Shown here in pieces: positions 6,193-49,563 of a DNA stretch of 64,000 nt. The position numbers and the translations under genes were made by a program. How positions within the stretch are numbered: position 1 is the stretch's first letter; each line of letters begins with the position of its first letter. The DNA lies in contig JACJID010000006.1 of NCBI GenBank assembly GCA_014138725.1, forward strand, positions 248,001-312,000. The letters run 5' to 3'. Origin of the DNA: Kutzneria viridogrisea (lineage in GTDB: Bacteria; Actinomycetota; Actinomycetes; Mycobacteriales; Pseudonocardiaceae). Below the pieces are notes generated by a model. That model made no database searches and was not told where the DNA came from. It saw only the letters and a program-made list of their open reading frames with translations.

Positions 6193-6290
6193 GCGAGTCC
6201 CGCTGAGCCGCGCGCGAGTCCCGCTGTGGGGCGGGTGAGTCCCGTTCTGCGGCACGCGAGTCCCGTCCTGCCTGTCGGACTCCTGGTTAG
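6193..6290. repeat. Array A: 21-bp-period GAGTCCCG repeats (4 units)
   Basis: The core GAGTCCCG starts at 6195, 6216, 6237 and 6258, spaced exactly 21 bp apart. A degenerate fifth copy (GACTCCTG) lies at 6278. The 13-nt spacers differ from one another, so this is a phased array of a conserved core rather than a simple tandem duplication. All units are in the forward orientation. The array lies between a plus-strand gene ending at 6184 and a minus-strand gene ending at 6465, beside the palindrome at 6358-6414. Confidence 0.9.
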
Positions 6291-6357
6291 TGGCTCGCCT
6301 CGGAACCTTGACCGTGTCTCACCGGCGACCACCCAGCCACGCCCGCCGACGCAGGTC

Positions 6358-6414
6358 GTGTCATGAAGGTGCCGTTCAGGACACCCAGTGTCCTGAACGG
6401 CACCTTCATGACAC
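6358..6414. repeat. Perfect 27-bp inverted repeat, TCATGAAGGTGCCGTT family
   Basis: Left arm 6358-6384 and right arm 6388-6414 are perfect reverse complements separated by the 3-nt loop CCA. The arm begins GTGTCATGAAGGTGCCG and ends TTCAGGACAC. It sits between two convergent genes, a position suited to a bidirectional terminator, although no U-tract follows. A second full palindrome of the same family is at 20252-20306 and a half-copy is at 59942-59968. From memory such palindromes are dispersed widely in Amycolatopsis-like genomes. Confidence 0.9.
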
Positions 6415-6464
6415 CGCAGCCTCGGCTCGGACCGGATACCAGGTCAACGATGCGCGACGCGCCA

Positions 6465-7355
6465 CTAGTCCGCGCTGAGCCAGGCCCGCCAGGTCGGCAG
6501 CAGGGTCGCCAGCAGGCCTGCGGGGTTCTCGGTGTTCGGTGAGTGCGCGGCTCCGGTCACCACGGCGAAGTCGGCGTCCAACCGGTCGGCCATGTCCCGC
6601 TGGGAGGCCACCGACCAGGCGTTGTCCTGTTCCCCGCAGATCACCAGTGCCGGGGCGCTGGCCGAACGCAGCCCGGCGGCCAGCTTGGTCACGAGGTCGG
6701 GCTCGTAGCGCAGGCCGTCGCCCATGCCGAGCAGGCCGGCGGCAGTGGAACGCACGAACCGGGTACGCCGGAACTGCTTGACCGGTTCGGGCAGCGCCAC
6801 CCAGTCCGGGCTGGCGGCGGACACCTGTTCCAGCACCTGGTAGGTGGCCTCCACCCCGCGGGCACGCAGCGTGGACTCGCAGAAGTCCAGCGCCACGCGC
6901 CGGTCGCCGGGCGGCAGTTCGGCGGGACCGGAGTCGAGCAGGGTCAGGCCGTGCACGGGGGCGTTGGCCAGCACGGCGCCGCGCACCACGAGCCCGCCAT
7001 AGGAGTGGCCGAGCAGCAGCACGCGCCTGCCGTCGGCGGTCAGCTTCGCGACCAACTCGGCGAGCACGGCGCCCAGCGCGGCCGGGCGGTACGCGGACTC
7101 CACGTCCGGGCCGGGGGACTCGTACTGCCCGGGCAGGTCGATCGCGATGACCTCGATGCCCGCGTCGGAGATCGGATCGATCAGCGGGGCGAAGTCCTCC
7201 TTGGACCCGGTGTAGCCCGGCACGAGCAGCGCGGTCGCGCCAAGGTCCGTGCCGTGCGCCGGGGCGCGCAGCCCCGCGATCGGCCCATAACGCCCCGGCA
7301 GCTCGATCCGGGCGGCGCGGTTCGGGGTCAACGGTGAGGCAGGCGCGGCGTTCAC
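6465..7355 (-). CDS. Alpha/beta-fold hydrolase
   Basis: This 296-aa protein has the alpha/beta hydrolase layout. An oxyanion-side segment LLVPGYTGSKEDF lies near residue 45, the nucleophile elbow is GHSYGG (about 118-123), an acid region is in ICGEQDN, and a likely catalytic His is in GAAHSPNTE near the C-terminus. The GTG at 7355 is the only reasonable start because the upstream gene on the same strand stops at 7384; the Shine-Dalgarno site is weak. It is probably transcribed with the beta-propeller protein and the helicase upstream of it. The substrate cannot be predicted. Confidence 0.8.
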   Translation of the reverse strand: MNAAPASPLTPNRAARIELPGRYGPIAGLRAPAHGTDLGATALLVPGYTGSKEDFAPLIDPISDAGIEVIAIDLPGQYESPGPDVESAYRPAALGAVLAELVAKLTADGRRVLLLGHSYGGLVVRGAVLANAPVHGLTLLDSGPAELPPGDRRVALDFCESTLRARGVEATYQVLEQVSAASPDWVALPEPVKQFRRTRFVRSTAAGLLGMGDGLRYEPDLVTKLAAGLRSASAPALVICGEQDNAWSVASQRDMADRLDADFAVVTGAAHSPNTENPAGLLATLLPTWRAWLSAD

Positions 7356-7383
7356 ACCGACGAGTGTGCCGTACAGCGGTGCG

Positions 7384-8769
7384 TCAACGCAGCGCCACCA
7401 CCGTGCCGCCACGCTGTTCGAGCAGGACGTCACCCAGGGTCGACAGCCGGACGGGACCCGTGTAGCCCTTGCGGTCCACGGTGATCGTGCCCGAGCGGGC
7501 CCCGGTGAGCGGGTCCAGCACGGCCAGGCCCTCGGCGACCGGTACCAGCAGCTTGTCCGCGTAGACCGTGCCGGACCCGAGTGCGCCGTCCAGGGTCCAG
7601 GTCGGGCTCATGCCGCTCGGGTCCAGTGCGACCAGCTTCGAGCCGGAGTACCAGGTGATGATCTTCGCTCCGCCCGCGTAGCTCACCGCGAAGCTGCCCG
7701 CCTCGCACTTGCCGCCGGGGTCGAGCTGCTGGGTGCAGGTGATCGCGGTGCTCGGCTCCACCGCGGACTTCGGCGCCCCGGCCAGGTCGGCGTCGGGCAC
7801 CGGCAGCGGGGCCGCGCCCACCTGGGAGCCCGCGTTGTCCCACACCACGAGCCGGTTCGGGTTGGCCACCGCCACCGCGACCCGCTGGTCGGTCACCGCG
7901 ACGATCCTGGCGTTGCCGCCGGGCACCTCCACGCTGAACGCCACGTTCGGCTTCTCGCCGTCGTTCTGGGTGCCCTCGGGCTTGATCACCGTGAGCCGCT
8001 GGAAGGACTCACCCGCGCACTGCTCGATGACCGCCACCGAGCCGGCCGTGGCCGCCTGTGAGCTGTAGGTGCAGCCGGTCCTGGGCTGCTTGTCGTGGTT
8101 CACCACCGCGGTGACCGTGCCGTACTGCTGGGTCTGCACCAGGTCGGAGCGCCAGGTGTCGATCAGCTTCTTGCCGGTCGTGGTGAGGTAGGTGCCGTCG
8201 TAGAGCAACTGGGTGCCCAGCTCGGCGTCGCCGTTGCGCTGCGCACCCCGCGCGCCGGTCACCCCGTCCAGCTCGGTGACCTCGCTGCAGTTGTGCTCCT
8301 TGTGGTAGACCACGACGGCCTTGCCCCAGGCCGCGGCCACCGTGCACAGGTCCAGGTTGTCCCGCGTGTAGCTCCAGCGGGTGGCCCCGGTGACCGGGTC
8401 GTGGCCGATGACCTGGTGGCCCTCGGCCGTGACCACGGTCGGGCCGACCACCACGGGATCGGTGGTCGCCCCGCTGGCGGCCTGCCACAGCTGCTTCATC
8501 GTCGCGGGCACCGCGGTGGCACGCGGCGGGGCGGTCGCGGTCGCGGGGCCGGTGACCGAGGTGGTCGCCCTGGCGTCGCTGAACCACCACCAGGTGCCGG
8601 TGGCCGCGACCAGCACGAGCACGATCACCAGCACCGCGAGGAGATCACGCCTGCGGGTGAACCGCGTGCGTGGCCCGTCAGGTGGGGGCGGCTGCTGGTC
8701 GAGCGTCGTCTCGACGGGTTCCCGCAGCGGGTCCGCGGCCACGGCCGACCCCACCTGATCGTGTTCCAC
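7384..8769 (-). CDS. Membrane-anchored PQQ-like beta-propeller protein
   Basis: This 461-aa protein has an acidic N-terminal tail, a basic stretch (TRFTRRRD), one transmembrane helix (LLAVLVIVLVLVAATGTWWWF, about residues 40-60) and a large extracytoplasmic domain. Repeated propeller-like blades are visible, such as VTAEGHQVIGHDPVTGATRWSY and VAEGLAVLDPLTGARSGTI. Paired cysteines suggest disulfides. The GTG start lies 4 bp after the helicase stop, so the genes are coupled. From memory the pair corresponds to M. tuberculosis Rv3211 (rhlE) and Rv3212. A scaffold or assembly role like BamB is only a fold-level analogy. Confidence 0.8.
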   Translation of the reverse strand: MEHDQVGSAVAADPLREPVETTLDQQPPPPDGPRTRFTRRRDLLAVLVIVLVLVAATGTWWWFSDARATTSVTGPATATAPPRATAVPATMKQLWQAASGATTDPVVVGPTVVTAEGHQVIGHDPVTGATRWSYTRDNLDLCTVAAAWGKAVVVYHKEHNCSEVTELDGVTGARGAQRNGDAELGTQLLYDGTYLTTTGKKLIDTWRSDLVQTQQYGTVTAVVNHDKQPRTGCTYSSQAATAGSVAVIEQCAGESFQRLTVIKPEGTQNDGEKPNVAFSVEVPGGNARIVAVTDQRVAVAVANPNRLVVWDNAGSQVGAAPLPVPDADLAGAPKSAVEPSTAITCTQQLDPGGKCEAGSFAVSYAGGAKIITWYSGSKLVALDPSGMSPTWTLDGALGSGTVYADKLLVPVAEGLAVLDPLTGARSGTITVDRKGYTGPVRLSTLGDVLLEQRGGTVVALR

Positions 8770-8773
8770 GTGA

Positions 8774-10441
8774 CTAGTCTGCCGAAGAGTTCTGCTCGGC
8801 GGCACCCGCCTCGCCGCCCGCGACCTCGACACCGCTGCGGCGGCGGCGCCTGCGCCGGGCCGGGCGCTCCGCCGAAGCGGCCTCGCCCTCACCCTTGGCC
8901 TGCGGCTGCTCGCCGCTACCGGACTGCTCGGTCACCTCGACCCCGGCCCTGCGGCGGCGGCGCTGGCGACGCGGCTTGGCCTCGCCGTCCTCGGTGCTGC
9001 TCTCCTGGCTCGCGGGGCGGCTGCCGGTGCTCGCCTTGCCGCTGGACTTGGTGCCGCCCCTGGTGCGGCGGCTGCGCGTCTTCTTGCCGCCCAGGTCCTC
9101 CTCGGCCTCGGCGGACAGCCCGGCCCTGGTGCGCTGGCTCAGCGGCAGCCTGCCGGTGGTCTCCTGCGGGATGTCCAGGTCGGTGAACAGGTGCTCGGAG
9201 GTCGAGTAGGTCTCCACCGGCTCCGGGATGCCCAGTCCGAGCGTGTCGGAGATGAGCTTCCAGCGCGGCTCCTCGTCCCAGTCGACCAGGGTGATGGCCA
9301 CGCCCTCGCGCCCGGCCCGGCCGGTGCGGCCGATCCGGTGCACGTAGGTCTTCTCGTCCTCGGGGCACTGGTAGTTGATGACGTGCGTCACACCCTCGAC
9401 GTCGATGCCCCGGGCGGCCACGTCGGTGGCGACCAGCACGTCGACCTTGCCGGAGCGGAACGCGCGTAGTGCCTGCTCGCGGGCGCCCTGGCCCAGGTCA
9501 CCGTGCACGGCGGCGCTGGCGAAACCGCGCTCGGCCAGCTCGTCGGAGATCTTCTGCGCGGTGCGCTTGGTCTTGGTGAAGATCATCGTGAGACCGCGCT
9601 CGCGGGCCTGCAGCGCGCGGGCGATCAGCTCGCTCTTGTCCAGGGCGTGCGCCCGGTAGACGAACTGCCTGGTGCGCTCGTGGATGGCGCCCGCGTCGTT
9701 CTCCTCGGCCCGGATGTGCGTGGGCTGGGTGAGGAAGGTCCTGGCCAGCTTGATGATCGGGCCGGGCATGGTCGCGGAGAACAGCATCGTCTGCCGCTTC
9801 TCGGGCACCATGCGCAGGATGCGCTCGATGTCGGGCAGGAAGCCCAGGTCGAGCATCTCGTCGGCCTCGTCGAGCACCAGGCCCTTGATCTTGCCGAGCA
9901 CCAGGTGGCGCTGCTCGGCCAGGTCGAGCAGCCGACCGGGCGTGCCGATGACCACGTCGACGCCCTTGCGTAGCGCCTCGATCTGCGGCTCGTAGGGGCG
10001 CCCACCGTAGATGGCCAGCACCCGGATGCCCAGGTGCTTGCCCGCGTCGGTCAGGTCGTGCGTGACCTGAAGGCACAGCTCGCGGGTCGGCACGACCACC
10101 AGGGCCTGCGGCACGCCGTCACCGGGGGTGGTGATGCGGTGCAGCAGCGGCACGCCGAAGCCCAGGGTCTTGCCGGTGCCGGTGCGCGCCTGGCCGATGA
10201 CGTCGTCACCGGCGAGCGCGATCGGCAGGGTCAGCTCCTGGATGGCGAACGTGCGTTCGATCCCGGCGGAAGCAAGGGCGCGCACGATTTCCTCGCGCAC
10301 ACCCAATTCGCCGAACGTGGGCGAGTTGCCCCGCACCGGAGCGCCCGCCTGCAGCGGGTGGGAGGTGTCGACCTCCGGCAGCCCGGAGTCGCTGTGGTCC
10401 AGCGTGACCGGGTCCAGATGTGTGTTGTTGCTGACGGTCAG
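8774..10441 (-). CDS. rhlE: DEAD-box RNA helicase (RhlE type)
   Basis: All DEAD-box motifs are present: Q motif [17 protein letters not shown] (I), PTRELCLQV (Ia), LDEADEMLD (II), FSATMP (III), [10 protein letters not shown] (V) and [15 protein letters not shown] (VI). A basic low-complexity C-terminal tail ([10 protein letters not shown] and similar) is typical of RNA-binding extensions. The start is unusual. A strong GAGAGG (10450-10455, minus strand) is correctly placed only for a CTG codon at 10441, giving 555 aa beginning [12 protein letters not shown]. Alternative in-frame starts are TTG 10459, GTG 10471 and GTG 10333. It is coupled to the beta-propeller gene and diverges from the ferritin-like gene. 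Confidence 0.88.
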
Positions 10442-10455
10442 AGTGATCGCCTCTC

Positions 10456-10569: not shown

Positions 10570-10748
10570 GGCGGCCGCGCCGCCGTGCTGTCGCGCCTGG
10601 TCGTGCGGTGGGACACAGGGAGGACCGCCACGTCGCTCCCGGTCGCGTCGCCGCTCACTACCAGGCTTCGGGAGGGGAGTCTACCTGGCCCTACGCCGTA
10701 CCGCTGGCGCTGTTTCGGCGCGGACCGCGGCGGCTACGCTCTGCCGAC

Positions 10749-11432
10749 ATGAGCGCGAGCGAGGCTGACCAGCGGCCCGGAGCCGCCACCAGCACAGTGG
10801 CCGAGGGAGTCGCCGACCTGTTGGGGGTGCTGGCCTACGGCGAGCTCTCCGCCTTCGACCGGCTCGCGGAGGACGCCCGCAGCGCGCCCACGCTGACCGG
10901 GCGGGCCGCGCTGGCCTGCATGGCGGCCGCCGAGATGGGCCACTACCAGTTGCTGGAGCGCTACCTCGCCGACCACGGCGTGGCCGTGGAGAAGGCGATG
11001 AGCCCCTTCGTGGCGGCCTTCGACGCGTTCAACGCCTCCACCGCCCCGCGGTCCTGGCACGAATCGCTGGTCAAGGCGTACGTGGGCGACGGGCTGGCCG
11101 CCGACTTCTACCGCGAGGTCGCGGGCTGGCTGGACGAGCCCACCCGTTCGCTGGTGCTCGACGTGCTCGCCGACACCGGCCACTCCGCCTTCGCCGAGCG
11201 CGAGGTCAAGGCGGCGTGTGAGGGGGATCGCACCCTGCGCGACCGGCTCACCCTGTGGGGCAGGCGGCTGCTGGGTGAGGCGCTGACCCAGGCCCAGTAC
11301 GTGGTTGCCGAGCGGGACGGGCTGGCCGAGCTGCTGATCCGCGGCTCGGGGGACCTGGCGGGCATCGGTGCCCTGTTCAAGCGGTTGCAGCAGAGCCACA
11401 CCAAGCGCATGGCGGCACTCGGCCTGGGCTGA
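10749..11432 (+). CDS. Ferritin-like fold protein
   Basis: This 227-aa, mostly helical protein resembles the actinobacterial ferritin-like family found beside rhlE (M. tuberculosis Rv3210c, from memory). Putative diiron or helix-core segments are [26 protein letters not shown] and [12 protein letters not shown], which carry the Glu/His residues expected in a four-helix bundle. The ATG at 10749 is chosen as the start of recognisable homology; the open frame upstream runs through the divergent helicase promoter. No signal peptide is visible. A 21-bp-period repeat array begins two bases after its stop codon. Confidence 0.78.
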
Positions 11433-11433
11433 G

Positions 11434-11538
11434 CGGGACTCGCGGGTGCCTGGACGGGACTCGCCGGTGTGTGGACGGGACTCGTCGGCGGCTGAGCGGG
11501 ACTCGCGTGCGGGAGGGCGGGACTCGCGGGGGTGGTGT
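11434..11538. repeat. Array B: 21-bp-period CGGGACTC repeats (5 units)
   Basis: CGGGACTC, the complement of the array-A core, starts at 11434, 11455, 11476, 11497 and 11518, every 21 bp without exception. Spacers vary (for example gcgggtgcctgga against gtcggcggctgag). All units have the same orientation, opposite to array A. The array begins two bases after the TGA of the ferritin-like gene and ends about 90 bp before the DUF3107 gene. Confidence 0.9.
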
Positions 11539-15876: not shown

Positions 15877-15986
15877 GCCGGAAGCGCGAACACGCCGTGC
15901 CGGTAGCGCCGACACGCGGTGCCGGTAGCGCCGACACGCGGTGCCGGTAGCGCCGACACGCGGTGCCGGTAGCGCCGACACGCGGT
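15877..15986. repeat. 22-bp tandem repeat (4 near-exact copies plus 1 diverged)
   Basis: Units starting at 15899, 15921, 15943 and 15965 repeat every 22 bp; each reads GCCGGTAGCGCCGACACG followed by CGGT. A diverged copy (four differences) precedes them at 15877. A stretch near 15805 (GCGTGTCGGCGCTTC) is the inverted form of the repeat core, so the region can fold back on itself. It lies between convergent genes and differs in period and core from the 21-bp arrays. Confidence 0.9.
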
Positions 15987-15997
15987 GAGCCGGGGGG

Positions 15998-27019: not shown

Positions 27020-28140
27020 CCGAAGTCGGTCCGCTCGCCGGGTTCACGGTCGGTGTCACCGCTGCGCGGCGGGCCGACGAACTCGGCGCGCTGCTGTCCC
27101 GGCGGGGCGCCGTGGTGCAGCACGCCCCGGCGATCCAGATCGTGCCGGTGCCCGACGACACCCAGTTGCGGCACGCCACCCAGCGCCTGCTGGACGAGCG
27201 GCTGGACCAGGTGGTGGCGACCACGGGCATCGGGTTCCGCGGCTGGGTTGAGGCCGCCGAGGGCTGGGGACTGGGCACGGAGTTGTTGCGCCACCTGGGA
27301 TCGGCCACGGTGCTCGCGCGCGGACCCAAGGCGCGCGGCGCGGTGCGTGCCGCCGGGCTGGTGGAGGCGTGGGCCCCGGCCTCGGAGAGCAACGCCGAGC
27401 TGTTGCAGTACCTGCTCGACAACGGCGTTGCCGGGCAACGGATCGCGGTGCAGTTGCACGGGGAACCGTTGCCCGACTTCGTGAACAGCCTGCGTTCGGC
27501 CGGTGCCGAGGTGGTCGAGGTGCCGGTCTACCGCTGGACCGGGCCCGCCGACCCCGCCCCGCTGGACCGGCTGGTGGACGCGGTGGTGGCCCGCCAGGTC
27601 GACGCCGTGACCTTCACCAGCGCGCCCGCGGCGGCCAGCACGCTGGCCCGTGCCGAGCGGACCGGGCGCGGGCGGGCTCTGCGCTCCGCGCTGGCCGGGG
27701 ACGTGCTGGTGGCCTGCGTGGGCCCGATCTGCGCCGGTCCGCTCACCGCGGCGGGAATCCCTTGCGTGCAGCCGGAACGCGCGCGGATCGGCTCACTGGT
27801 CCGTGAGCTCTCGGTGGAACTGCCCGCACGCGCGCAACGACTTCGTGTCGCCGCAAGCGATGTGGAACTGCGCGGCCAGGCCGTTGTCGTGGACGGCCAG
27901 CTGCGGCCGGTGGCCCCCGCGCCGATGGCCGTGCTGCGCGCCCTGGCCGATCGACCGGGGCACGTCGTGTCCCGTCAGGACCTGATTGCCGTGCTGCGCC
28001 GCAACTCCAGCCCGTCACGCGGGGTCGAGGAGCACGCCGTGGAGACCGCGGTCGGCCGCCTGCGCACCGCGCTGGGCGTGCCGCGGCTGGTGCAGACCGT
28101 GGTGAAGCGCGGCTACCGGCTTGCCCTGGAGCAGGTATGA
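27016..28140 (+). CDS. nnaR: HemD-like / winged-helix regulator (NnaR type)
   Basis: This 374-aa fusion has an N-terminal uroporphyrinogen-III synthase (HemD)-like domain (about 1-255, FTVGVTAARRADELGALL... TSAPAAASTL) and a C-terminal OmpR-type winged helix (about 285-372, ADRPGHVVSRQDLIAVLRR...VVKRGYRLALE). This is the NnaR architecture (S. coelicolor SCO2958, M. smegmatis NnaR; Rv0260c by memory), a co-regulator with GlnR of nitrate/nitrite genes. Whether the HemD part still has synthase activity for siroheme is unclear. The ATG at 27016 overlaps nirD's stop, and its stop overlaps the chelatase gene. Confidence 0.88.
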   Translation: MTEVGPLAGFTVGVTAARRADELGALLSRRGAVVQHAPAIQIVPVPDDTQLRHATQRLLDERLDQVVATTGIGFRGWVEAAEGWGLGTELLRHLGSATVLARGPKARGAVRAAGLVEAWAPASESNAELLQYLLDNGVAGQRIAVQLHGEPLPDFVNSLRSAGAEVVEVPVYRWTGPADPAPLDRLVDAVVARQVDAVTFTSAPAAASTLARAERTGRGRALRSALAGDVLVACVGPICAGPLTAAGIPCVQPERARIGSLVRELSVELPARAQRLRVAASDVELRGQAVVVDGQLRPVAPAPMAVLRALADRPGHVVSRQDLIAVLRRNSSPSRGVEEHAVETAVGRLRTALGVPRLVQTVVKRGYRLALEQV

Positions 28141-28817
28141 CACTCGTACTCGTCGCACACGGCACCCGCGAGCCCTCGGGCGCGGTGACCGTCAACGCCA
28201 TCGCCGACGCCCTGCGCACCAGGCTCGCCCACGTGCGGGTCGAGGTCGCCTACGTCGACGTGCACGGCCCCTCGGTGACCGAGGTGGTCCGCGCGGTCGG
28301 CGGTCCTTCCGTTGTCGTGCCAGCGTTCCTGGCCAGCGGCTACCACGTGCGCGTGGACGTGCCGGAGCAGGTGCGCCGCAGCGGCCGCGGGGTCGTGACG
28401 ATCACCGACCCGCTCGGACCCGCCCAGCCTGTCGTGTCCGCCGTCCAGGACAGGCTGGCGGCTGCGGGGTGGCGGCCCGGTGACGCCGTGGTGCTGGCCG
28501 CCGCGGGGTCCACGGACCGCCGGGCCCTGGCCGACGTGCGCCGGGCCGCCGACCTGCTCAGCGCCGGGACCGGGACCGAGGTGCGGGTCGGCTACGTCAG
28601 CACCGGCCCGTCGGTGGCCGAGGCGGTGGCCGCCGAGCGGCTGCGCGGTGGGCGGGTGGCCGTCGCCTCGTGGCTGCTGGCCCCGGGCCTGTTCCACCGG
28701 CGGCTGGCCGAGTCGGGCGCCGACCTCGTGGCCGAACCGATCGGCGCACACCCCCGGCTGGTCGAGCTGCTGGCCTGGCGCTACCTCACCGCCCGCGGCC
28801 TGATGCGCGCCGCCTGA
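28137..28817 (+). CDS. Sirohydrochlorin chelatase (CbiX family)
   Basis: This 226-aa protein contains two CbiX-like halves. The first has TLVLVAHGTREPSG with the metal/tetrapyrrole-binding His10-like residue, then VVVPAFLASGYHVRVDVP; the second begins near VVLAAAGSTDRRAL. It inserts ferrous iron (or cobalt) into sirohydrochlorin and would provide siroheme for NirB. The ATG overlaps the nnaR stop by 4 bp, closing a six-gene operon from flavoprotein to cofactor synthesis. From memory Rv0259c-Rv0260c-Rv0261c shows the same grouping. A repeat array begins 14 bp after the stop. Confidence 0.9.
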   Translation: MTLVLVAHGTREPSGAVTVNAIADALRTRLAHVRVEVAYVDVHGPSVTEVVRAVGGPSVVVPAFLASGYHVRVDVPEQVRRSGRGVVTITDPLGPAQPVVSAVQDRLAAAGWRPGDAVVLAAAGSTDRRALADVRRAADLLSAGTGTEVRVGYVSTGPSVAEAVAAERLRGGRVAVASWLLAPGLFHRRLAESGADLVAEPIGAHPRLVELLAWRYLTARGLMRAA

Positions 28818-28828: not shown

Positions 28829-29057
28829 GCGAGTCCCGCTCAGCCGCACGCGAGTCCCGTCCACAGGCGCGCGAGTCCCGCCCATGGGTGCGTGAGTCCC
28901 GCTGAGGCGTGCGTGAGTCCCGTTCATGGGTGCGTGAGTCCCGCTGAGCCGCGAGCCCGGCCTAACTGGCGAGCGGGACTCACGCACCTCAGGCCGGGAC
29001 TCACGCACCTCAGGCCGGGACTCGCGCGCCTCAGGCCGGGACTCGCCGTCACCGGAG
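28829..29057. repeat. Array C: 6 forward + 4 reverse units, 21-bp period
   Basis: GAGTCCCG starts at 28831, 28852, 28873, 28894, 28915 and 28936. Its complement CGGGACTC starts at 28974, 28995, 29016 and 29037. Spacing within each half is always 21 bp. Where the halves meet, GTGCGTGAGTCCCGCT (28930-28945) and its exact complement (28972-28987) can pair as a 16-bp stem around a 26-nt loop. Degenerate units continue to about 29075. The array fills the gap between the chelatase gene and the convergent alkyltransferase-like gene. Confidence 0.92.
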
Positions 29058-29088
29058 CGGGCCGTCACCGGAGCGGGTCGTCACCGGC

Positions 29089-29421
29089 TCACTCGAACAG
29101 GCCGAGCTGGGGCTCGTCGGCGGGTTCGGTGACGGCTTCCTCCCAGCGGTACTTGCGCAGGTCCACCTTGCCGTCCACGGCCAGCACGCCCTCGGCGCGC
29201 AGGCGGTCCAGCTGCTCGTGTGCGATGTGTGGCGCGCAGGTGCCGTTGGCGCGCAACACCCGCTGCCACGGCAGGTCGTGCCCGTCCTCCTGGAGGACCT
29301 TGCCGACCATCCGCGGCGACGGGGCCCGCGCGATGTCGGCGATGTCCCCGTAGGTCGCGACCCGCCCCTCCGGGATGCGGGTGATCACTGAGCGGATCAG
29401 CTCAACGAGTTCCTCGTCCAT
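29089..29421 (-). CDS. Alkyltransferase-like protein (ATL, MGMT family)
   Basis: This 110-aa protein is a MGMT DNA-binding-domain homologue with IPEGRVATYGDIA, the helix-turn-helix region PSPRMVGKVL and DLPWQRVL. In true O6-alkylguanine transferases the last motif is PCHRV with the reactive Cys; here Trp replaces it, which defines ATL proteins that flag alkylated guanine for nucleotide-excision repair. Its length matches stand-alone ATLs. It lies downstream of the lipase-like gene (12-bp gap), as Rv3203-Rv3204 do in mycobacteria from memory. Confidence 0.88.
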   Translation of the reverse strand: MDEELVELIRSVITRIPEGRVATYGDIADIARAPSPRMVGKVLQEDGHDLPWQRVLRANGTCAPHIAHEQLDRLRAEGVLAVDGKVDLRKYRWEEAVTEPADEPQLGLFE

Positions 29422-37798: not shown

Positions 37799-40700
37799 GT
37801 GCATCAGGTCAGCCCGCAGGAGGTGGCGGAGGCGCTGGGCCTGCCGCCGCCCACCGCGGAGCAGGCCGCCGTGGTCGCCGCCCCCGCCGAGCCCGCGCTC
37901 GTCGTGGCCGGGGCCGGTGCGGGCAAGACCGAGACGATGGCCGCCCGCGTGGTCTGGCTGGTCGCCAACGGGCTGGTCACCCCGGACCGGGTACTCGGGC
38001 TGACCTTCACGCGCAAGGCCGCGCGGCAGCTCGCCGACCGGGTCAAGTCCCGGCTGCGCAGGCTGGCCGGATCGCCACTGCTGGACCGGGTCGACCCCAG
38101 CGGGGACCGGCGCGCCGTAGTGCTGTCCACCGAGCCCACGGTGCTGACCTACCACGCCTACGCCGGGCGGCTGGTCGGCGAGCACGGCCTGCGGCTGCCG
38201 GTGGAACCCGGTGCGCGGCTGCTCACCGAGACCGCCGCGTGGCAGCTGGCGCACCGCGTGGTGTCCACCTGGACCGAGGACCTGGACACCGACAAGGTGC
38301 CGGTGACGATCACCGGCTACCTGCTCCGGCTGGCCGGTGAGCTGGCCGAGCACCTGGTCAGCCCCGAGCAGCTCACCGAACACGCCGAGCGGCTGCGGCA
38401 GGCCATCGAGTCGGCGCCGCGCGCCCCGAGGCAGCGCGCCGACCTGCCGGTGGCCCTGCGCGAGATCGTTGAGGCACAACGCCTGCGGGTGGCGCTCATG
38501 CCGCTGCTGGCGGAGTACGGCGTGCGCAAGCGCAGGGAGGCGGCGCTGGACTTCGCGGACCAGATGTCGCTGGCGGCGAAGCTGGCCGCCGAGCACCCGG
38601 AGGTGGTCGAGGGGGAGCGGGCCCGCTACGGGGCGGTGCTGCTGGACGAGTACCAGGACACCGGGCACGCCCAGCGCGTGCTGCTGCGCTCCCTGTTCGG
38701 CATGGGGGCGCCGATCCCGGTGACGGCCGTGGGCGACCCGGCACAGGCGATCTACGGCTGGCGCGGGGCCAGCGCCGCGAACCTGCCCAGGTTCACCACC
38801 GACTTCCCGCGCGCCGACCTGCGGCCCGCCGCCAAGTACGGGCTGCTGACCAGCTTCCGCAACCCGCCCGAGGTGCTGGCGATCGCCAACGAGCTGTCCG
38901 GCCCGCTGCGGGCGGCGGGCCTGGACGTGGACGAGCTGCGCGCCAAGCCGGGCGCGGGCGAGGGGGACGTGCGGTGCGCGCTGCTGCCCGACGTGCGCAG
39001 CGAGGTGGCGTGGCTGGCCGACGAGCTCGCGGCCCGGTGGGAGGCGCAGCTGGACGCCGAGGGCAAGCCGCCCACCTCGGCGGTGCTGGTGCGGCGGCGG
39101 GCCGACATGGCCGCGATCGCCACCGCGCTGCGCGAGCGCGGGCTGCCGGTCGAGGTCGTGGGCCTGGGCGGGCTGCTGGACGAGCCCGAGGTCCGCGACC
39201 TGTACAGCGCCCTGCGGGTGCTGGTCGACCCGCTGGCGGGCACGGCCGCCGCGCGACTGCTCACCGGGTCCCGCTGGCGGTTGGGCGCCGCCGACCTCGC
39301 CGCGCTGTGGAAGCGCGCGGGGGAGATCGCCGGGCGGCGCACCCCCGTGCCCTCGGACGACCCGCTGTCGGCGATCGCCGAGGCCACGCCGGGGGAGCAC
39401 GCCGAACAGGCCGGGCTGGTCGACGCCCTGGACGATCCCGGCGATCCCGAGCAGTACTCGGAACAGGGCGTGCGGCGGATCCGGCGGCTGCGTGGTGAGC
39501 TGATGGCCCTGCGCAGGCGCCTGGACCAGCCGTTGCCCGAGCTGGTGGCCGACGTGGAACGCACGCTGCTGCTGGACATCGAGGCCGTGGCCAGGCCCGG
39601 CCGGGTGGGCCGCGCGCACCTGGACGCCTTCGCCGGGGTCGTCGCCGACTATGCCGCGGCCAGCCCGTCGGCCTCGCTGGCCTCGCTGCTGGACTACCTG
39701 CGCACCGCCGAGAACGCCGAGGACGGGCTGGAACCCGGCGAGGTCGAGGTGGCCGAGGACCGGGTGCAGGTGCTCACCATGCACGCCGCGAAGGGCCTGG
39801 AGTGGGGGATCGTCGTGGTGCCGCACGTGGTGCGCGATGTGTTCCCCGGCAGGCGCAAGTCGGCCTCCTGGCTGAAGTCGATCACCGAGCTGCCCGCCGA
39901 CCTGCGCGGTGACGCCCAGGACCTGCCGAAGTTGAACCTGGCCGGTGCGAGCAACCGCAAGGAGGTCGAGGAGGCGCTCGCGATCCACTCCGAGGAGTTC
40001 GAGGAGCGACGGCTGATCGAGGAACGCCGCCTGTGCTACGTGGCGCTGACCCGCTCCGAACGCGTGCTGCTCGTCTCGGGCCACTGGTGGGGCGAGACGG
40101 GGGAGAAGCCGCGCGGGCCCTCGGAGTTCCTGGACGAGGTGCGGGCCGCCGTGGAGCAGGGCGACCGCCCGCCCGGGGTGGTGGACGAGTGGGCCCCGCC
40201 GCCCGCTGAGGACGAGAAGAACCCGCTCGCCGCCGCCGTGCGCACCGCGACCTGGCCGATCGACCCGCTCGGGGCCCGCCGTGAGCCGGTGGCCGCGGGC
40301 GCCGCGATGGTCCTGGCCGCGCTCAACGGTGCGGCGCCCGCACCAGTGCCCGTCCTGACCGCGGTTCCGGTCGAGGAGGAGGTGCCGCTGCCCGAGCCAC
40401 CGCCCGAGGACGAGGAGTTCCCGCCCGAGTACGAGGACTACTACGAGCAGGACCCCTACGCCGAGGACCCGCCTCCCCCCGACTACCCCGCGAATCCCGC
40501 TGACCCGCTGGCGAGTCCCGCCAACCCGTTCGCGAGTCCCGCTGACCTGCACACGAGTCCCGCTGACCACCCTGCGAGTCCCGTCCACCTGCTCGCGAGT
40601 CCCGCCGACCCGCTGGCGAGTCCCGCTGACCCGCTGGCGAGTCCCGCTGACCCGTTCGCGAGTCCCGCTGAGCCGCTGGCGAGTCCCGTTGACCTGCACG

Positions 40701-41452
40701 TGAGTCCCGCCGAGCACAACGCGTCAGGCCGGGACTCGCGCTCCCCAGACCGGGACTCGCGGGTGGGGGAGGAGGACCCGGAGGGGTGGGCCGCGGACGT
40801 GGAGGTGCTGCTCGCCGAGCGGGAGGCCGCGCGCAGCCGTCGCGAACTGGTCGCGCTGCCCGACCAGCTCACGGTGAGCCAGCTCGTGGAGCTGGCGGCC
40901 GATCCCGACGAGCTGGCCCGCAGGCTGCGACGGCCGCTGCCGTTCCCGCCCAACGCGCTGGCCCGCCGGGGTACCGCCTTCCACGCCTGGCTGGAGCGTC
41001 GCTTCGGTGCGACCACGCTGCTGGACCTGGACGAGTTGCCCGGTGCCGCGGACGAGACGGCCCGCCCGGACGCCGACCTGGAGCAGCTGTGCGCGGCGTT
41101 CCTGGCCAGCCAGTGGGCGGACCGGGTGCCGCACGAGGTGGAGGTGCCGTTCGAGACCGAGGTGGACGGCGTGTCCGTGCGCGGCCGGATGGACGCGGTG
41201 TTCCGCGACGCCGACGGGGGCTGGACGGTGGTGGACTGGAAGACCGGTGCGGTGCCGGACGCGGCGCGGCTGCCCGCGCTGTCGGTGCAGCTGGCCGCCT
41301 ACCGGCTGGCCTGGGCCGCGCTCAAGGACGTGCCGCTGGAGCAGGTCCGCGCTGCGTTCCACTACGTGCGGCACGACCACACGCTGCGGCCGACGGACCT
41401 GCTCGACGGTGCGGGGCTACGGGAGCTGCTCCGCTCCGTTGCGCGGGGCTAG
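37799..41452 (+). CDS. adnB: ATP-dependent helicase-nuclease subunit AdnB with repeat insertion
   Basis: This protein of about 1217 aa is the AdnB subunit. It has Walker A VAGAGAGKTE (about 37-46), Walker B LLDEYQDT, motif GDPAQAIYGWRGA, motif VI VALTRSERVLL and a C-terminal nuclease with GRMDAVF and VDWKTG (Asp1146, Lys1148). It is about 100 residues longer than mycobacterial AdnB as I recall. The excess is a Pro/Asp/Glu-rich linker followed by residues ~898-987, which are thirteen 7-residue repeats (ASPADPL-like, then RDSR-type) encoded by a 21-bp-period repeat array. The insertion lies between helicase and nuclease domains and keeps the frame. GTG 37799 is preferred; GTGs at 37790 and 37793 are alternatives. 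Confidence 0.92.
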   Translation: MHQVSPQEVAEALGLPPPTAEQAAVVAAPAEPALVVAGAGAGKTETMAARVVWLVANGLVTPDRVLGLTFTRKAARQLADRVKSRLRRLAGSPLLDRVDPSGDRRAVVLSTEPTVLTYHAYAGRLVGEHGLRLPVEPGARLLTETAAWQLAHRVVSTWTEDLDTDKVPVTITGYLLRLAGELAEHLVSPEQLTEHAERLRQAIESAPRAPRQRADLPVALREIVEAQRLRVALMPLLAEYGVRKRREAALDFADQMSLAAKLAAEHPEVVEGERARYGAVLLDEYQDTGHAQRVLLRSLFGMGAPIPVTAVGDPAQAIYGWRGASAANLPRFTTDFPRADLRPAAKYGLLTSFRNPPEVLAIANELSGPLRAAGLDVDELRAKPGAGEGDVRCALLPDVRSEVAWLADELAARWEAQLDAEGKPPTSAVLVRRRADMAAIATALRERGLPVEVVGLGGLLDEPEVRDLYSALRVLVDPLAGTAAARLLTGSRWRLGAADLAALWKRAGEIAGRRTPVPSDDPLSAIAEATPGEHAEQAGLVDALDDPGDPEQYSEQGVRRIRRLRGELMALRRRLDQPLPELVADVERTLLLDIEAVARPGRVGRAHLDAFAGVVADYAAASPSASLASLLDYLRTAENAEDGLEPGEVEVAEDRVQVLTMHAAKGLEWGIVVVPHVVRDVFPGRRKSASWLKSITELPADLRGDAQDLPKLNLAGASNRKEVEEALAIHSEEFEERRLIEERRLCYVALTRSERVLLVSGHWWGETGEKPRGPSEFLDEVRAAVEQGDRPPGVVDEWAPPPAEDEKNPLAAAVRTATWPIDPLGARREPVAAGAAMVLAALNGAAPAPVPVLTAVPVEEEVPLPEPPPEDEEFPPEYEDYYEQDPYAEDPPPPDYPANPADPLASPANPFASPADLHTSPADHPASPVHLLASPADPLASPADPLASPADPFASPAEPLASPVDLHVSPAEHNASGRDSRSPDRDSRVGEEDPEGWAADVEVLLAEREAARSRRELVALPDQLTVSQLVELAADPDELARRLRRPLPFPPNALARRGTAFHAWLERRFGATTLLDLDELPGAADETARPDADLEQLCAAFLASQWADRVPHEVEVPFETEVDGVSVRGRMDAVFRDADGGWTVVDWKTGAVPDAARLPALSVQLAAYRLAWAALKDVPLEQVRAAFHYVRHDHTLRPTDLLDGAGLRELLRSVARG
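40490..40762. repeat. 21-bp-period array inside adnB (11 forward + 2 reverse units)
   Basis: GAGTCCCG cores start at 40492 (one mismatch, GAATCCCG), 40513, 40534, 40555, 40576, 40597, 40618, 40639, 40660, 40681 and 40702. CGGGACTC starts at 40730 and 40751. Every step within a half is 21 bp. In the adnB frame each forward unit reads Ala-Ser-Pro-Ala-Asp-Pro-Leu or a variant. The segment 40728-40762 is identical over 35 bp to 49445-49479 in array D. Confidence 0.95.
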
Positions 41453-45213: not shown

Positions 45214-45267
45214 GGTGTTGCCGCGTGCCCTGGCGAACCAGCCGGGCACGCGGCACCCTTGTCCGCC

Positions 45268-47862
45268 ATGAGGCCCGTTGACCTGGTCGGGCGCACCGAG
45301 CTGCTGACGGCCGTCACCGAGGGGCTGCGCGCGTCCGGGCGGGTGGTCCTGACCGGGCCGCGCGGCATCGGCAAGTCCGCGGTGCTGGCCGCCGTCGCCG
45401 CCAGGGCCGGTGAGCCGGTGCTGGCGCTCAACCCGGCGCGCTCGGACCGGGACCTGCCCTTCGGCGCGGTGGCCGACCTGTTCTGCGCGCTGCCCGCCGA
45501 GGACCTGCCCGAGGGACAGGCCGCCGCGGTGCACGCCGTGCTGCGGCACACCAGCCGCGACGGCCGCGAGGTGGACCCGCTCGCGGTACGGCTCGCGCTG
45601 AGCACGCTGCTCGGCCGGGCGGCGCCGGTGCTGCTGGTGATCGACGAACTGCCGCACCTGGACCCCGACAGCGCCCGCGCCCTGGACCACGCCCTGCGCA
45701 GGCACGCCGAGGTGCACGTGCTGGCGGCCGGTCCCGGCGGTGAGCTGTGCGGGCCCGACCGGGTTGAGCTGACCGTGCCGCCGCTGGACTTCGACGAGGT
45801 CGCCGAACTGCTCGCGGCGGACGGTGTGCCCTACCGGCTGGCCTGGTCCATCCACCGGCTCAGCGGCGGATTCCCCCACCTGGCAAGGGAACTGGGCCGT
45901 GGCCGCCAGCACGCGGCGGCCGAGTTGGCCCGCGCCTGGCTCGCCGAGGCCCCGGCACCAGCGCTGCTCGTCGCGGCACTGGCCGCCAGGCCGACGCCCA
46001 GCCTGCTGCGCCGGGCCTGCGGGCCGCGGGTCGAGCGGGAGCTCAGGGCGGCCACCGCGGCCGGTCTGCTCACCGTGACCGAGGACCGGATCCGTTTCAC
46101 CGCGGGCATCCTGCCCGACACCGTGATCGCGGACAGCGACTGGACCGAGCGCGCCGCCGCGCACACCCTGTTGGCCGGGGCCGTGCACAGCCGCGTCGAG
46201 GCGGCCGGTCACCGGGCGCGGGCCACCGACGGGCCGGATGCCGGGCTGGCGGCCGAACTCGCCGCCGGGGCGAGCGCCTCGGTCCGCCGCGGCGACTGGT
46301 CGACCGCCGCCGAACTGGGCCTGCTGGCGGCCGAGCGCACGCCGCCGCAGGAGCCGGAACTGGTGCTGCGCCGACTGGTCGAGGCCGCCGCGGCGGCGGG
46401 CAGGGCGGGCCGGGTGGAGCTCGCGCGCCGGGCCGCGGACCAGGCCCTGGCCCGGGATGACTCGCCAGACAACGGGGTTCGCGTGCGACTGGCCATTGTG
46501 GACGCTGCGGGGCAGGCCATCGACGACTGCGACGAACTGCTCGCCGAAGCCGCTGCCGCCGCGGGGGAGGACCCGGCACTGCTGGCGGGAGTTGTTGTGC
46601 GCCAGGCCATCAAGGCCAACCTCGCCGAGGGCGACCCGGTCCGTGCCCGTGCCGAGGCCCGTCGCGCAGCCGTCCTCGCGGCGCAGGGCGGTGATCCGGC
46701 CACCGAGGTCATGGCGCTGACGATGCAGGCCAGGATGGAGCGCGTGCTGGGTGATCCGGCCGCACGGCAGACCCTGGAGTTCGCGCTGGGCGTGCCCGGC
46801 CAGCCCGAGCCGAGGGAACTGGGCAACTCGCCGCGTTTCCTGGCCGCACGGCACGCGCTGTTCGACGACCGGCTCGTCGAGGCCCGCACGAGGTTGCTGG
46901 AATTGCTGCCCGCCGCCCAATTGGCCGGTGCCACCGAGTACGTGGAGATCTCCCGCAGCCTGGCCGAGGTCGAGGCGCGGGCCGGTCGGTGCGCGGACGC
47001 GCTGGAGCACGCGCGCCGTGCGGTGGCCGCCACCCGGCGGCTCGGGCTGTCGCCGGGGCCCTCCCTCTACACGGCCGCGGTGGCCGAGACGGCGGGCGGC
47101 AGCTTCGCCCGTGCCGCCGACTACGCGCGTCGCGGGGTGCAGGCCTCCCGCGAGGAGCACGACGTGGTCTTCCTGTCCCGCAACCTGCACGCGCTGGGTC
47201 TGGTCGAACTCGTCACCGGGGACCCCGCCCGCGCCCTGGAGGTGCTCCGCCAGGTCGGCGAGCTGGAGGCCGGGCAGCACGTGGCCGACCCGTCCCTGCT
47301 GCGCTGGCACGGGGACCTGGCCGAGGCGCTGGCCGCCACCGGCTCACCCGACCTGGCCGCCGACCTCATCGAGCGGGTGGGTCCCCGCACCCCTGCCGTA
47401 CAGGCCTGCCTGGACCGCGCGCAGGCTGCCTGCCTGGTGGCACAAGGCGATCCGTCCGGTGCGCTGACAATTCTGTCCACTGTGGAGTGTGCGTTCGAAT
47501 CGCTGCCGCTGGAGCGCGGGCGGACCCTGCTCGCGGTGGCCAAGGTGGAGCGCCGACTGCGGCACTGGGCGGCGGCCCGCGCCGCGCTGGAGACCGCCGT
47601 CGAGCTGTTCGAGGCCAGCGCCGCACGGCCGTGGCGGGAACTCGCGCTGGCCTCGATGAGCCCCAGGCCCAGCGGTGCCGACTCCGCGCTGACCGCCGCC
47701 GAGGAGCGGCTCGCCGAGCTGGTGGTGCAGGGCGCCAGCAACCAGGAAGCCGCCGACAAGCTGTTCCTGAGCGTGAAGACCGTCGAGTCCATGCTGACCC
47801 GGATCTACCGCAAGCTGGGCGTCTCCTCCCGCGCGCAGCTGGGCAACCTGCGCCGCGGATAG
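45268..47862 (+). CDS. LAL-type LuxR-family regulator with AAA ATPase domain
   Basis: This 864-aa protein is a large ATP-binding regulator of the LuxR family. The N-terminal NTPase has Walker A LTGPRGIGKSAV (about 28-39) and Walker B LLVIDELPHLD. A long helical TPR-like middle follows (about 250-780). The C-terminal LuxR helix-turn-helix is LTAAEERLAELVVQGASNQE...KTVESMLTRIYRKLGV. The ATG at 45268 was chosen; an in-frame TTG lies 9 bp upstream, and there is no clear ribosome-binding site. It is flanked by a secreted carboxypeptidase and a secreted serine protease on the same strand, so control of these exoenzymes is plausible but inferred. Confidence 0.86.
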   Translation: MRPVDLVGRTELLTAVTEGLRASGRVVLTGPRGIGKSAVLAAVAARAGEPVLALNPARSDRDLPFGAVADLFCALPAEDLPEGQAAAVHAVLRHTSRDGREVDPLAVRLALSTLLGRAAPVLLVIDELPHLDPDSARALDHALRRHAEVHVLAAGPGGELCGPDRVELTVPPLDFDEVAELLAADGVPYRLAWSIHRLSGGFPHLARELGRGRQHAAAELARAWLAEAPAPALLVAALAARPTPSLLRRACGPRVERELRAATAAGLLTVTEDRIRFTAGILPDTVIADSDWTERAAAHTLLAGAVHSRVEAAGHRARATDGPDAGLAAELAAGASASVRRGDWSTAAELGLLAAERTPPQEPELVLRRLVEAAAAAGRAGRVELARRAADQALARDDSPDNGVRVRLAIVDAAGQAIDDCDELLAEAAAAAGEDPALLAGVVVRQAIKANLAEGDPVRARAEARRAAVLAAQGGDPATEVMALTMQARMERVLGDPAARQTLEFALGVPGQPEPRELGNSPRFLAARHALFDDRLVEARTRLLELLPAAQLAGATEYVEISRSLAEVEARAGRCADALEHARRAVAATRRLGLSPGPSLYTAAVAETAGGSFARAADYARRGVQASREEHDVVFLSRNLHALGLVELVTGDPARALEVLRQVGELEAGQHVADPSLLRWHGDLAEALAATGSPDLAADLIERVGPRTPAVQACLDRAQAACLVAQGDPSGALTILSTVECAFESLPLERGRTLLAVAKVERRLRHWAAARAALETAVELFEASAARPWRELALASMSPRPSGADSALTAAEERLAELVVQGASNQEAADKLFLSVKTVESMLTRIYRKLGVSSRAQLGNLRRG

Positions 47863-47951
47863 GGCTCGCAAGGGTTTCCCCCGATGCTCCGGCAGGGGCG
47901 CCGGGCAGAGGCTGGGTGCCCCTGCTCCCTGCCCCACAAGGAGATCGACCG

Positions 47952-49445
47952 GTGAAGACACCCTCACGTGCTCACCTCCTCGCCGCTGGCGGCCTGGTGA
48001 CCGCGCTGGCCGCTGCTGCCGCGCTGATCCCGGCATTCAGCGCAGCCAGTACCTCCGAACACCCCGTGGCCTCGCCCGGCATGCTCGCGGCGATGCGGCG
48101 CGACCTCGGCCTGACCGCCGAGCAGGCCAGTTCCCGGCTCACCCAGGAGGACGCCGCCCAGGCCGTGGCAAGGCAGGTCCGCCAGGAGCTCGGCGCCGTG
48201 CAGGCCGGGTACTGGTTCGACGCCGCCAGCGGCAAGCTCGCGGTGGCCGTCACCGACCAGGCCAGCGCCGACCGGGCCGCCGCGCTCGGGGCCACGCCGA
48301 AACTGGTCAAGCGCGGCAAGGCCGAACTGGACCGGCTCGCGAGCTCGGTGTCGGCCCTGACCGGCAGCGGGATCACCAGCTGGGGCGTGGACCCGGCGAG
48401 CAACACCCTGGTGGTCAGCGTGAACTCGGCGACCGTCACCCAGTCCGTGCTCGGCGAGCTCGGCGCGCTGGGCGAGGGCGTGCGCGTGGTGCGGCAGAAC
48501 TCCGCGCCACGCCAGCAGAGCGGCACCGTCACCGGGGGCAACCCGTGGTGGCCCGGCAGCGAGAGCAACTGCTCGATCGCCTTCGCCGCAACGACTTCCG
48601 ATGGTGCCAGGCACTTCCTCACCGCGGGCCACTGCACCAACGACGCCAACCAGCCCGCCTACGGGGCCAGCGGCCAGCAGAACCGGATCGGCACCTCCAA
48701 CGTGGGCGGCAACCACAGCGTCAACGCCCGCGAGGGCGACTTCGGCCTGGTGGACGTGGACCAGTCCGGCTGGAACCTCAGCGCCACCGTCAACGCCTGG
48801 GGCAGTGGGAACGTCACCGTCAGCGGGTCCGCCGAAGGCGTTGTGGGACAGAGCATCTGCCACTCCGGCAACACCACGCACTGGCAGTGCGGCACCATCA
48901 CCAAGGTCAACGAGTCGGTGGACTACGGCAACGGGCTGATCATCGACGGCCTGTCGGAGACCAACGCCTGCTCCAACGGCGGGGACTCGGGCGGTTCCTA
49001 CGTCAGCGGGGACAAGGCCGTGGGCATCCACTCCGGTGGCGGCGCGGTCTGCGGTCAGGCCAACCCGGACACGATCTTCCAGCCGGTGAACGAGGCCCTG
49101 AGCAAGTGGGGCCTGACCCTGGTCACCGGTGGCGGCAATCCGCCAACCACGACGACCACCACCCCGAACCCGCCCACCGGCAAGGTGACCTTCAGCAACC
49201 CCGGCAACCAGTGGGGCTTCCGGGGCAGCAGCGTGTTCCCCTTGCAGCTCAAGGCAACCGCCAGTGACGGCGGGGCGCTCACCTACTCCGCCACCGGCCT
49301 GCCGCCCGGCCTGGTGATCAGCGCCAGCGGCCGGATCAGCGGCACGCCGAGCAGTTCGGGCACGTTCCCGGTCACCGCGAGGGCCACCGAGTCCACCGGC
49401 GTCAGCGGAACGACCAGCTTCACGTACCAGGTCTACGGCTTCTAG
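47952..49445 (+). CDS. Secreted S1 (alpha-lytic type) serine protease with Ig-like domain
   Basis: This 497-aa protein has a signal peptide (about 1-32) and an alpha-lytic-type prodomain (to about 190) with repeated GITSWGVDPASNTLVVSV-like strands. The chymotrypsin-fold catalytic domain has His227 (LTAGHC), Asp263 (GDFGLVDV) and Ser346 (GGDSGG). A Pro/Thr linker and a C-terminal putative Ig (He_PIG) domain follow, with LPPGLVISASGRISGTPSSSGTF. The catalytic domain starts after a likely cleavage near SAPRQQSG. AAGGAG eight bases upstream fixes the GTG. The prodomain assists folding in this family. A repeat array starts at the last base of the stop codon. Confidence 0.92.
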   Translation: MKTPSRAHLLAAGGLVTALAAAAALIPAFSAASTSEHPVASPGMLAAMRRDLGLTAEQASSRLTQEDAAQAVARQVRQELGAVQAGYWFDAASGKLAVAVTDQASADRAAALGATPKLVKRGKAELDRLASSVSALTGSGITSWGVDPASNTLVVSVNSATVTQSVLGELGALGEGVRVVRQNSAPRQQSGTVTGGNPWWPGSESNCSIAFAATTSDGARHFLTAGHCTNDANQPAYGASGQQNRIGTSNVGGNHSVNAREGDFGLVDVDQSGWNLSATVNAWGSGNVTVSGSAEGVVGQSICHSGNTTHWQCGTITKVNESVDYGNGLIIDGLSETNACSNGGDSGGSYVSGDKAVGIHSGGGAVCGQANPDTIFQPVNEALSKWGLTLVTGGGNPPTTTTTTPNPPTGKVTFSNPGNQWGFRGSSVFPLQLKATASDGGALTYSATGLPPGLVISASGRISGTPSSSGTFPVTARATESTGVSGTTSFTYQVYGF

Positions 49446-49563
49446 CCGGGACTCGCGCTCCCCAGACCGGGACTCGCGGCCCTGAGAGCGGGACTCGTGC
49501 TACTGAGAGCGGGACTCGCGGTGTTGGCCGCGAGTCCCGCTCTCCTGCACGTGAGTCCCGCTC
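49445..49563. repeat. Array D: 4 reverse + 2 forward units, 21-bp period
   Basis: CGGGACTC starts at 49447, 49468, 49489 and 49510; GAGTCCCG starts at 49532 and 49553. Steps within each half are 21 bp and the switch is 22 bp. The array fills the gap between the protease stop (49443-49445) and the convergent nudC end (49564). Its first 35 bp are identical to 40728-40762 in adnB. Confidence 0.92.
49505..49544. terminator. Hairpin formed by array D at its orientation switch
   Basis: GAGAGCGGGACTCGCGG (49505-49521) and CCGCGAGTCCCGCTCTC (49528-49544) pair perfectly over 17 bp with a 6-nt loop (TGTTGG). It lies between two convergent genes and could terminate both transcripts. No U-tract follows. 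Confidence 0.65.

Follow-up and report, generated by a model that had tools for sequence, protein, structure and literature searches.

The window analysed here, a stretch of 64,000 bp from the 10.25-Mb genome of Kutzneria viridogrisea (11 contigs; C6:248001-312000), contains five arrays of a short repeat whose core GAGTCCCG recurs at a step of 21 bp (Table 1). One protein of the window has its best named matches, near records left out, in Saccharopolyspora and Saccharothrix (57-60% identity), which would place the genome in Pseudonocardiaceae. Genes were called with our own codon-usage script, which is not a standard annotation. The exact cores on either strand total 37 across the five arrays and 21 bp is the only step inside any run, in agreement with the initial annotation, which had counted about 37 cores in five arrays with an exact 21-bp step. 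Runs of opposite orientation are separated by steps of 38, 28, and 22 bp. In the 244 kb around the window, 33 pairs of exact same-strand cores lie 21 bp apart, but no pair has a step of 20 or 22 bp. Four arrays were also said to begin behind a stop codon, which held at the distances given in Table 1, whereas the fifth (40490-40762) was found inside a gene instead.

Table 1. Repeat arrays of the window, the gene that contains array 4, and an array of a second family.
Feature	Span	Strand	Cores (exact-core span)	Context
Array 1	6193..6265	+	4 (6195-6265), 21-bp pitch	10 bp past stop of gene 5870-6184; convergent spacer
Array 2	11434..11527	-	5 (11434-11525)	1 bp past stop of MiaE_2 gene 10797-11432
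Array 3, left run	28829..28943	+	6 (28831-28943)	13 bp past stop of CbiX gene 28137-28817
Array 3, right run	28974..29046	-	4 inverted (28974-29044)	end 44 bp ahead of stop of gene 29089-29421
Array 4, left run	40490..40711	+	10 intact (40513-40709); 1 degenerate (at 40490)	within gene 37799-41452; in-frame units of 7 codons
Array 4, right run	40730..40760	-	2 inverted (40730-40758)	same reading frame as gene 37799-41452
Array 5, left run	49447..49519	-	4 (49447-49517)	1 bp past stop of trypsin-like gene 47997-49445
Array 5, right run	49530..49560	+	2 inverted (49532-49560)	3 bp ahead of stop of NUDIX gene 49564-50526
Host gene of array 4	37799..41452	+		UvrD-type helicase with C-terminal PDDEXK nuclease; 1,217 codons
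Second, related family array	15877..15987	-	5 units of 22 bp, core GCGTGTCGGCGCT	convergent spacer

When the whole genome was searched for two cores separated by 13 bp, 1,040 pairs (477 + 563) were found and the reversed-pattern control gave 0 + 0, which bears out the 21-bp pitch as a genome-wide feature and corresponds to hundreds of arrays; among the matches listed, the arrays occur on contigs C1-C6 and C8-C10. Spacing and placement were studied in a sample of ~1.26 Mb. It comprised eleven 20-kb stretches and four contiguous blocks that add up to 1.04 Mb and include the window and its surroundings as one block. The stretches were picked for arrays and the C2, C3, and C4 blocks were chosen with knowledge of the hits, so the density of arrays in the sample is above the genome average, and spacing and placement within intergenic spacers are unaffected. 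Consecutive same-strand cores lying 18-24 bp apart were at exactly 21 bp in 257 of 272 cases. The lag scan of 8-mers in the non-coding part of the sample returned two strong periodic families, one at 21 bp and the other at 22 bp. The arrays of the sample form 67 clusters, of which 55 have a single orientation and 12 are mixed.

The conservation within the unit was monitored in 257 units having exact cores on both sides. Columns 11-13 are C/G, A/T, and C/G in 96-97% of the units each; G makes up 89% at column 16 and 83% at column 20, and column 21 is C or T in 99%. At column 12, A and T together make up 96% and both are common, though the genome is 72% GC. From these column frequencies the better-kept core was taken as the 10-mer GCGAGTCCCG, and the unit is described as a 10-bp core with an 11-bp loose spacer. 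In the other genomes inspected, the core departs from this word by one or two letters. The pattern of columns 11-13 is such as minor-groove contact would leave. In 179 triples chosen by their outer cores only, the middle core was exact in 157, and each of its bases was kept in 96-100%. Neighbouring spacers differed at 5.3 of 13 positions on average (157 pairs), as compared with 6.3 between arrays, the value expected from column composition, and only 4 of the 157 neighbouring pairs were identical. Thus, the 13-nt spacers are variable as had been claimed, but they are patterned at several columns and some neighbours are near-identical; the array 3 right run, for example, has units with 96% matches by Tandem Repeats Finder. 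Since neighbouring spacers are nearly as divergent as those of different arrays, most units are not recent local copies, and the earlier view that simple slippage had not built the arrays is mostly borne out. Recent slippage is not their main cause, a few near-identical runs aside, and the near-identity of neighbouring units along their full length that marks a slippage-born variable-number tandem repeat was not found. Hairpins within the unit were also considered and rejected, as the top column correlations came without a general excess of complementary pairs.

The arrays are dispersed and for the most part extragenic and located downstream of genes. The 52 intergenic spacers that hold arrays comprise 24 of the 123 convergent, 24 of the 419 tandem, and 4 of the 192 divergent spacers. 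In 37 of the 48 array spacers with a stop codon at an edge, the array lies within 20 bp of the stop, whereas random placement in the same spacers gave a mean of 19.2 of 48 and none of 1,000 permutations reached 37. In tandem spacers, 22 of 24 arrays are closer to the 3′ end; the cores there are 132 in sense and 75 in antisense orientation, and the clusters are 18 sense, 7 antisense, and 6 mixed. Two of the 67 clusters were called inside genes, and the second of these (C1:2069533) lies in a short frame that is uncertain. The gene preceding array 2 holds a one-mismatch core in register with the array. In the terminal unit of this array (window 11430-11441), the stop codon TGA coincides exactly with columns 12-10, so that it is common to gene and repeat. 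Several other minus-orientation arrays also begin 1 bp past a stop, which is TAG in case of array 5. A 16-bp tandem repeat of GCCGTCACCGGAGCGG with 2.7 copies adjoins array 3 (window 29045-29087).

Array 4 differs from the other window arrays in being located in a gene, which we take to be AdnB-like. It lies in frame within the linker between the helicase and the PDDEXK nuclease domains and is translated into a heptapeptide repeat; 21 bp being seven codons, an insertion of this type keeps the frame. The orthologues of five sister genomes align on both sides of the array 4 region, which is ~450 bp here. The stretch at the same site measures 45-65 bp in three of them and 169 bp in another, and the fifth carries an unrelated acidic linker of 424 bp.

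In the sister species of the genus, the same 10-mer forms both ends of palindromes (fold-backs). Six sister genomes contain 92, 43, 22, 14, 5, and 0 copies of the pattern GCGAGTCCCG-N38-66-CGGGACTCGC and the window genome contains 23, and the reversed control gave 0. The sister genome with five such elements (G109) uses GCGAGTCGCG instead, with 42 such fold-backs; the remaining six genomes of the genus have 0-2 each, the spacing allowed in this search being N62-92 and not N38-66. The sister palindromes are 60-110 bp long, and the examples inspected often stand directly past a stop codon, sometimes with a second core 21 bp inward. Some copies carry two nested cores in each arm, with a step of 21 bp between them on one side or both (L055-L063). 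At two loci of G109 (G109:C3:601828 and G109:C30:78657), the outer core follows the GCGAGTCGCG dialect and the inner core stays GCGAGTCCCG. The slot of array 2, past the miaE-like gene, is occupied by fold-backs in three sister species; their interiors differ and one has a changed dialect on both arms, while a fourth species has another type of sequence and a fifth is unaligned on the gene side. At the relA-adjacent slot, four sister species have a fold-back, again varying in interior or dialect, and the window genome has a different palindrome. In the window genome tandem runs dominate, usually in one orientation. The dialects would fit either a reader protein that changes its specificity or a master copy that re-seeds the slots.

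Among 297 genomes of the family, including its own, only the window genome has more than 11 exact core pairs, and the single genome that reaches 11 owes them all to one locus, where the units are near-identical. When up to two mismatches were allowed in the core, 109 of the 297 genomes gave a match, many of them single matches, and a clear excess was seen in genera g15, g16, g20, g26, and g44, in one g5 genome and in the window genome. Weak loose-core matches were not accepted as evidence, as the reversed control also matches some genomes (G186, 40 + 40). Eleven genomes were searched for a different core with free spacing, GCGAGTTCCG-N1-30-GCGAGTTCCG, and 137 pairs were found, distributed over nine genomes of five other genera. 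Although the step could take any value from 11 to 40 bp, 131 of these were at 21 bp and the rest at 20, 22, 22, 22, 33, and 39 bp, and the spacer words of these arrays vary by genus. The 21-bp pitch is constrained. Outside the family, 7 of 244 genomes (of 298 in the order) gave matches, which resemble coding sequence or simple repeats; as far as such matches can tell, the repeat family was found only in this bacterial family among the 298 genomes of the order searched. In g16 (G124, L272 region, slot 3), a further 21-bp family with a core near GCGTGTCGTCC adjoins the GCGAGTTCCG array, and this pair of families parallels the pair in the window genome.

The position of the arrays is mostly not conserved. 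Two collinear g16 genomes, G124 and G204, whose 166,907 aligned bases are 95.1% identical, share two of five array slots; at the other three, an array is present in one genome only, and its counterpart shows a different palindrome or hardly any sequence. Whole spacers at the slots of these genomes look replaced by eye, without clear target-site duplication. In the window genus, ten array spacers were located in two syntenic blocks, and six of them are without a comparable spacer in the relatives. The conservation of position for which the initial annotation had called for a check is therefore mostly absent, with three of five slots differing at 95% identity and the element present in 3 of 18 species-spacer pairs of the window genus.

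Seven folds of single-orientation runs from arrays 1-4, with the runs of array 3 folded apart, showed no RNA structure in excess of composition (z = -1.57 to 1.05), while array 5, which is of mixed orientation, folds as a strong hairpin (z = -8.96). The unit is not an imperfect palindrome in single-orientation runs and becomes palindromic only in mixed arrays such as array 5 and in the sister elements; with 55 of the 67 clusters in one orientation, an intrinsic-terminator hairpin is not found in each element. In the 14-nt flanks of the runs, a GTAG/CGTC tag on either strand was seen at 12 of 100 five-prime ends and at 6 of 100 three-prime ends, against a background of 17%. The Y1 (RAYT-type) transposase profile PF01797 has 0 matches in the window genome and one partial match among six sister genomes. 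Transposition of the RAYT/REP type was rejected in the absence of both the transposase match and the tag. No Rfam match in the window reached the gathering threshold. Searching the phage and plasmid collections with array 4 gave no match, and the exact three-core pattern was found in just four viral contigs, each of which holds unrelated simple repeats; a phage or plasmid origin was rejected on these grounds. Among the ten genes at the window arrays, one of which had no domain match, no replication-initiator domain was found. A resemblance of CGAGTCCCG to the tRNA T-arm was considered and dropped, as the dialects do not keep the T-loop rules.

Four multi-array segments (C1:22300-23550, C1:420500-421850, C1:461950-462950, and C4:748350-749350) are composites of 21-bp arrays and 22-bp-type repeats, and the two inspected have a long palindrome between the repeats. 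The four share a duplicated upstream region, and a DUF222-HNH gene lies downstream in three of them by the gene caller and beside the fourth, at C1:463001, by profile search. DUF222-HNH as the spreading agent was rejected, as its copies number 33 in the window genome, 58 in a sister with 7 core pairs, 17-24 in four others and 0 in one, and a simple motif scan showed no HNH-like frame at 15 sister loci. The GTGTCGGC cores of the 22-bp family are 22 bp apart in 25 consecutive pairs of the sample, with no other distance up to 70 bp occurring more than three times, and its core resembles that of the 21-bp family (GCGWGTC). Further, a near-perfect palindrome GTCATGAAGGTGCC...GGCACCTTCATGAC lies past a gene at window 6360-6412 and has a close relative beside relA (C2 near 468,190). 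It is another palindromic extragenic family, unlike the palindromes at the same slots in the sister species.

In their distribution, the arrays appear to work most like repetitive extragenic palindromic (REP) sequences and bacterial interspersed mosaic elements (BIMEs), and their geometry is closest to a phased binding array. The GTAG and CGTC families of REP/BIME are presented in PMC3733652 as dispersed short extragenic units with species-specific variants, some of them inside uvrA and uvrB. The present arrays are likewise found behind genes and between convergent genes, in mixed orientations, and with a copy in a repair gene, here AdnB-like. In contrast to REP/BIME, their single-orientation runs are non-palindromic, the GTAG/CGTC tag and a Y1 transposase were not found, and the 21-bp pitch is strict; because palindromic unit, end tag, and Y1 transposase were looked for and not found, the arrays were not classed as REP. 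Mycobacterial interspersed repetitive units and similar tandem repeats are also dispersed short tandem arrays near stop codons in actinobacterial spacers. Their units are longer by a factor of several and hardly vary inside one array, whereas the arrays here share the core but not the spacer between units. Eukaryotic foldback transposable elements have inverted arms built of tandem sub-repeats, to which the ++++++---- arrays, among the 12 mixed clusters of 67, and the nested sister palindromes may correspond, but no autonomous copy was found here, most clusters have one arm only, and the host is bacterial.

The arrays are also not classed as DNA uptake sequences or iterons, and as explanations both are highly improbable. 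In the uptake reading, cells would preferentially take up related DNA, as Neisseria does, and a short word would spread in this way; PMC3630211 describes dialects, terminator-associated inverted pairs, and intragenic copies for the Neisseriaceae. The 10-bp core, its species dialects, and the inverted pairs behind genes resemble this, but single copies are unenriched, clusters avoid genes (2 of 67), and the phasing is strict. To our knowledge, strict 21-bp phasing has no counterpart among DNA uptake sequences. Iterons of plasmid origins are direct repeats of about two helical turns on one face, and the phased direct repeats here fall in that range (~17-22 bp). As replication or segregation sites, arrays of ~21-bp units on one helical face would be expected at one origin, whereas here they are dispersed over the chromosome on the contigs listed above, no initiator gene was found alongside in the window, and sister species have palindromes instead.

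We propose from these comparisons a REP-like, fast-turnover, fold-back family of extragenic repeats whose 21-bp units are probably read by a putative DNA-binding protein, and we put the probability of this reading at about one half. The window arrays would be the locally expanded form of this family, the elements of which turn over fast at gene 3′ ends. The protein would recognise every core in its double-stranded form and would bind jointly at neighbouring cores, which lie on the same face at a distance of two turns, and a specificity changing with the genome would give the dialects. A phased reader was put forward because single cores are unenriched, the spacing resists insertions and deletions while the spacers drift, and neither a single orientation nor RNA structure is required; the pitch and the lack of RNA structure favour a constraint on double-stranded DNA tied to helical phase. 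The reader may be what multiplies the element, or it may belong to the host and mark or insulate the ends of genes. We lean slightly to the host factor because the arrays hug stop codons beyond what free placement in the same spacers gives. The phased protein-binding array of the initial annotation is upheld in that the pitch is enriched, exact, kept across genera, and at whole helical turns. It is incomplete in that no binding protein was found and the core is also the end of the fold-backs, and a phased array alone does not explain the core as the terminal repeat of sister elements. A role in the nucleoid, in segregation, or in termination would be a guess.

Several observations weigh against the proposed reading. 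No candidate for the core-binding protein was identified. Single cores are not enriched (49 in 1.04 Mb, against a median total of 78 and a range of 6-299 for 60 permuted 8-mers), so that the putative reader would need at least two sites. Array 4 is intragenic and cannot be a gene-end mark. In slot 3 shared by G124 and G204, the changes hit cores as well as spacers. In the four array spacers that could be compared in the window genus, the 3 of 18 pairs that have the element are all at array 2, and array-free spacers have it in 7 of 198. A rival reading takes the repeat as selfish or neutral and without a reader. Template switching, or else some unknown transposition enzyme, would multiply the palindrome ends, the 21-bp unit would simply be inherited from an ancestral element, and selection would clear copies from genes and promoters. 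This explanation stays close to the proposed one and is an unlikely but serious rival. It would account for slot differences between genomes 95.1% identical, the in-frame copy in a coding linker where the sister orthologues lack the array, and the copies within larger duplicated segments beside DUF222-HNH genes. However, with spacers as divergent as these (5.3 of 13 positions), changes of length would then be expected more often than in the 15 of 272 close pairs off 21 bp, and the 96-100% conservation of each core base and the hugging of stop codons beyond chance also speak against it, as do the lack of a Y1 transposase match in this genome and of an array 4 match in the phage and plasmid collections. 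The post-stop position, the convergent bias, the sister palindromes, the array 5 hairpin, and some strand bias of cores in tandem spacers (132 vs 75) are what would be expected if RNA or single-strand hairpins acted as two-way terminators or transcript stabilisers between genes. With 55 of 67 clusters in a single orientation, the seven folds of single-orientation runs near background, and array 4 inside a long gene, we regard this as improbable.

No paper on these arrays was found in the literature searched, as judged by title and the start of the abstract. Tandem-repeat surveys may already count some arrays of the present kind, as a table in PMC6749651 lists Amycolatopsis mediterranei with 23 satellites. 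The sister fold-backs, the dialects, the quantified proximity to stop codons, the turnover, and the in-frame nature of array 4 are new here, beyond the initial annotation. Dispersed bacterial repeats are usually palindromes and several are tied to a known type of transposase, whereas the present repeat is non-palindromic and helically phased, its pitch outlasts the drift of the word, which differs in dialect between genera, and it was found without any known transposase alongside. More tentatively than the reader itself, we suggest a family-wide marking system in which a protein assembling along one face of the DNA, on cores two turns apart whose word shifts from genome to genome in concert at dozens to hundreds of sites, marks or insulates gene 3′ ends; the window genome, with more than 1,000 site pairs, would then, equally tentatively, be the extreme of this putative system. 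A reader protein, if there is one, would add a new factor that organises the chromosome or limits transcription in a host group rich in antibiotic producers, and the dialects would be a natural experiment matching proteins to their sites. If there is no reader, an exact 21-bp pitch under such divergence of spacers needs another cause, which would be a surprise on the evolution of repeats.

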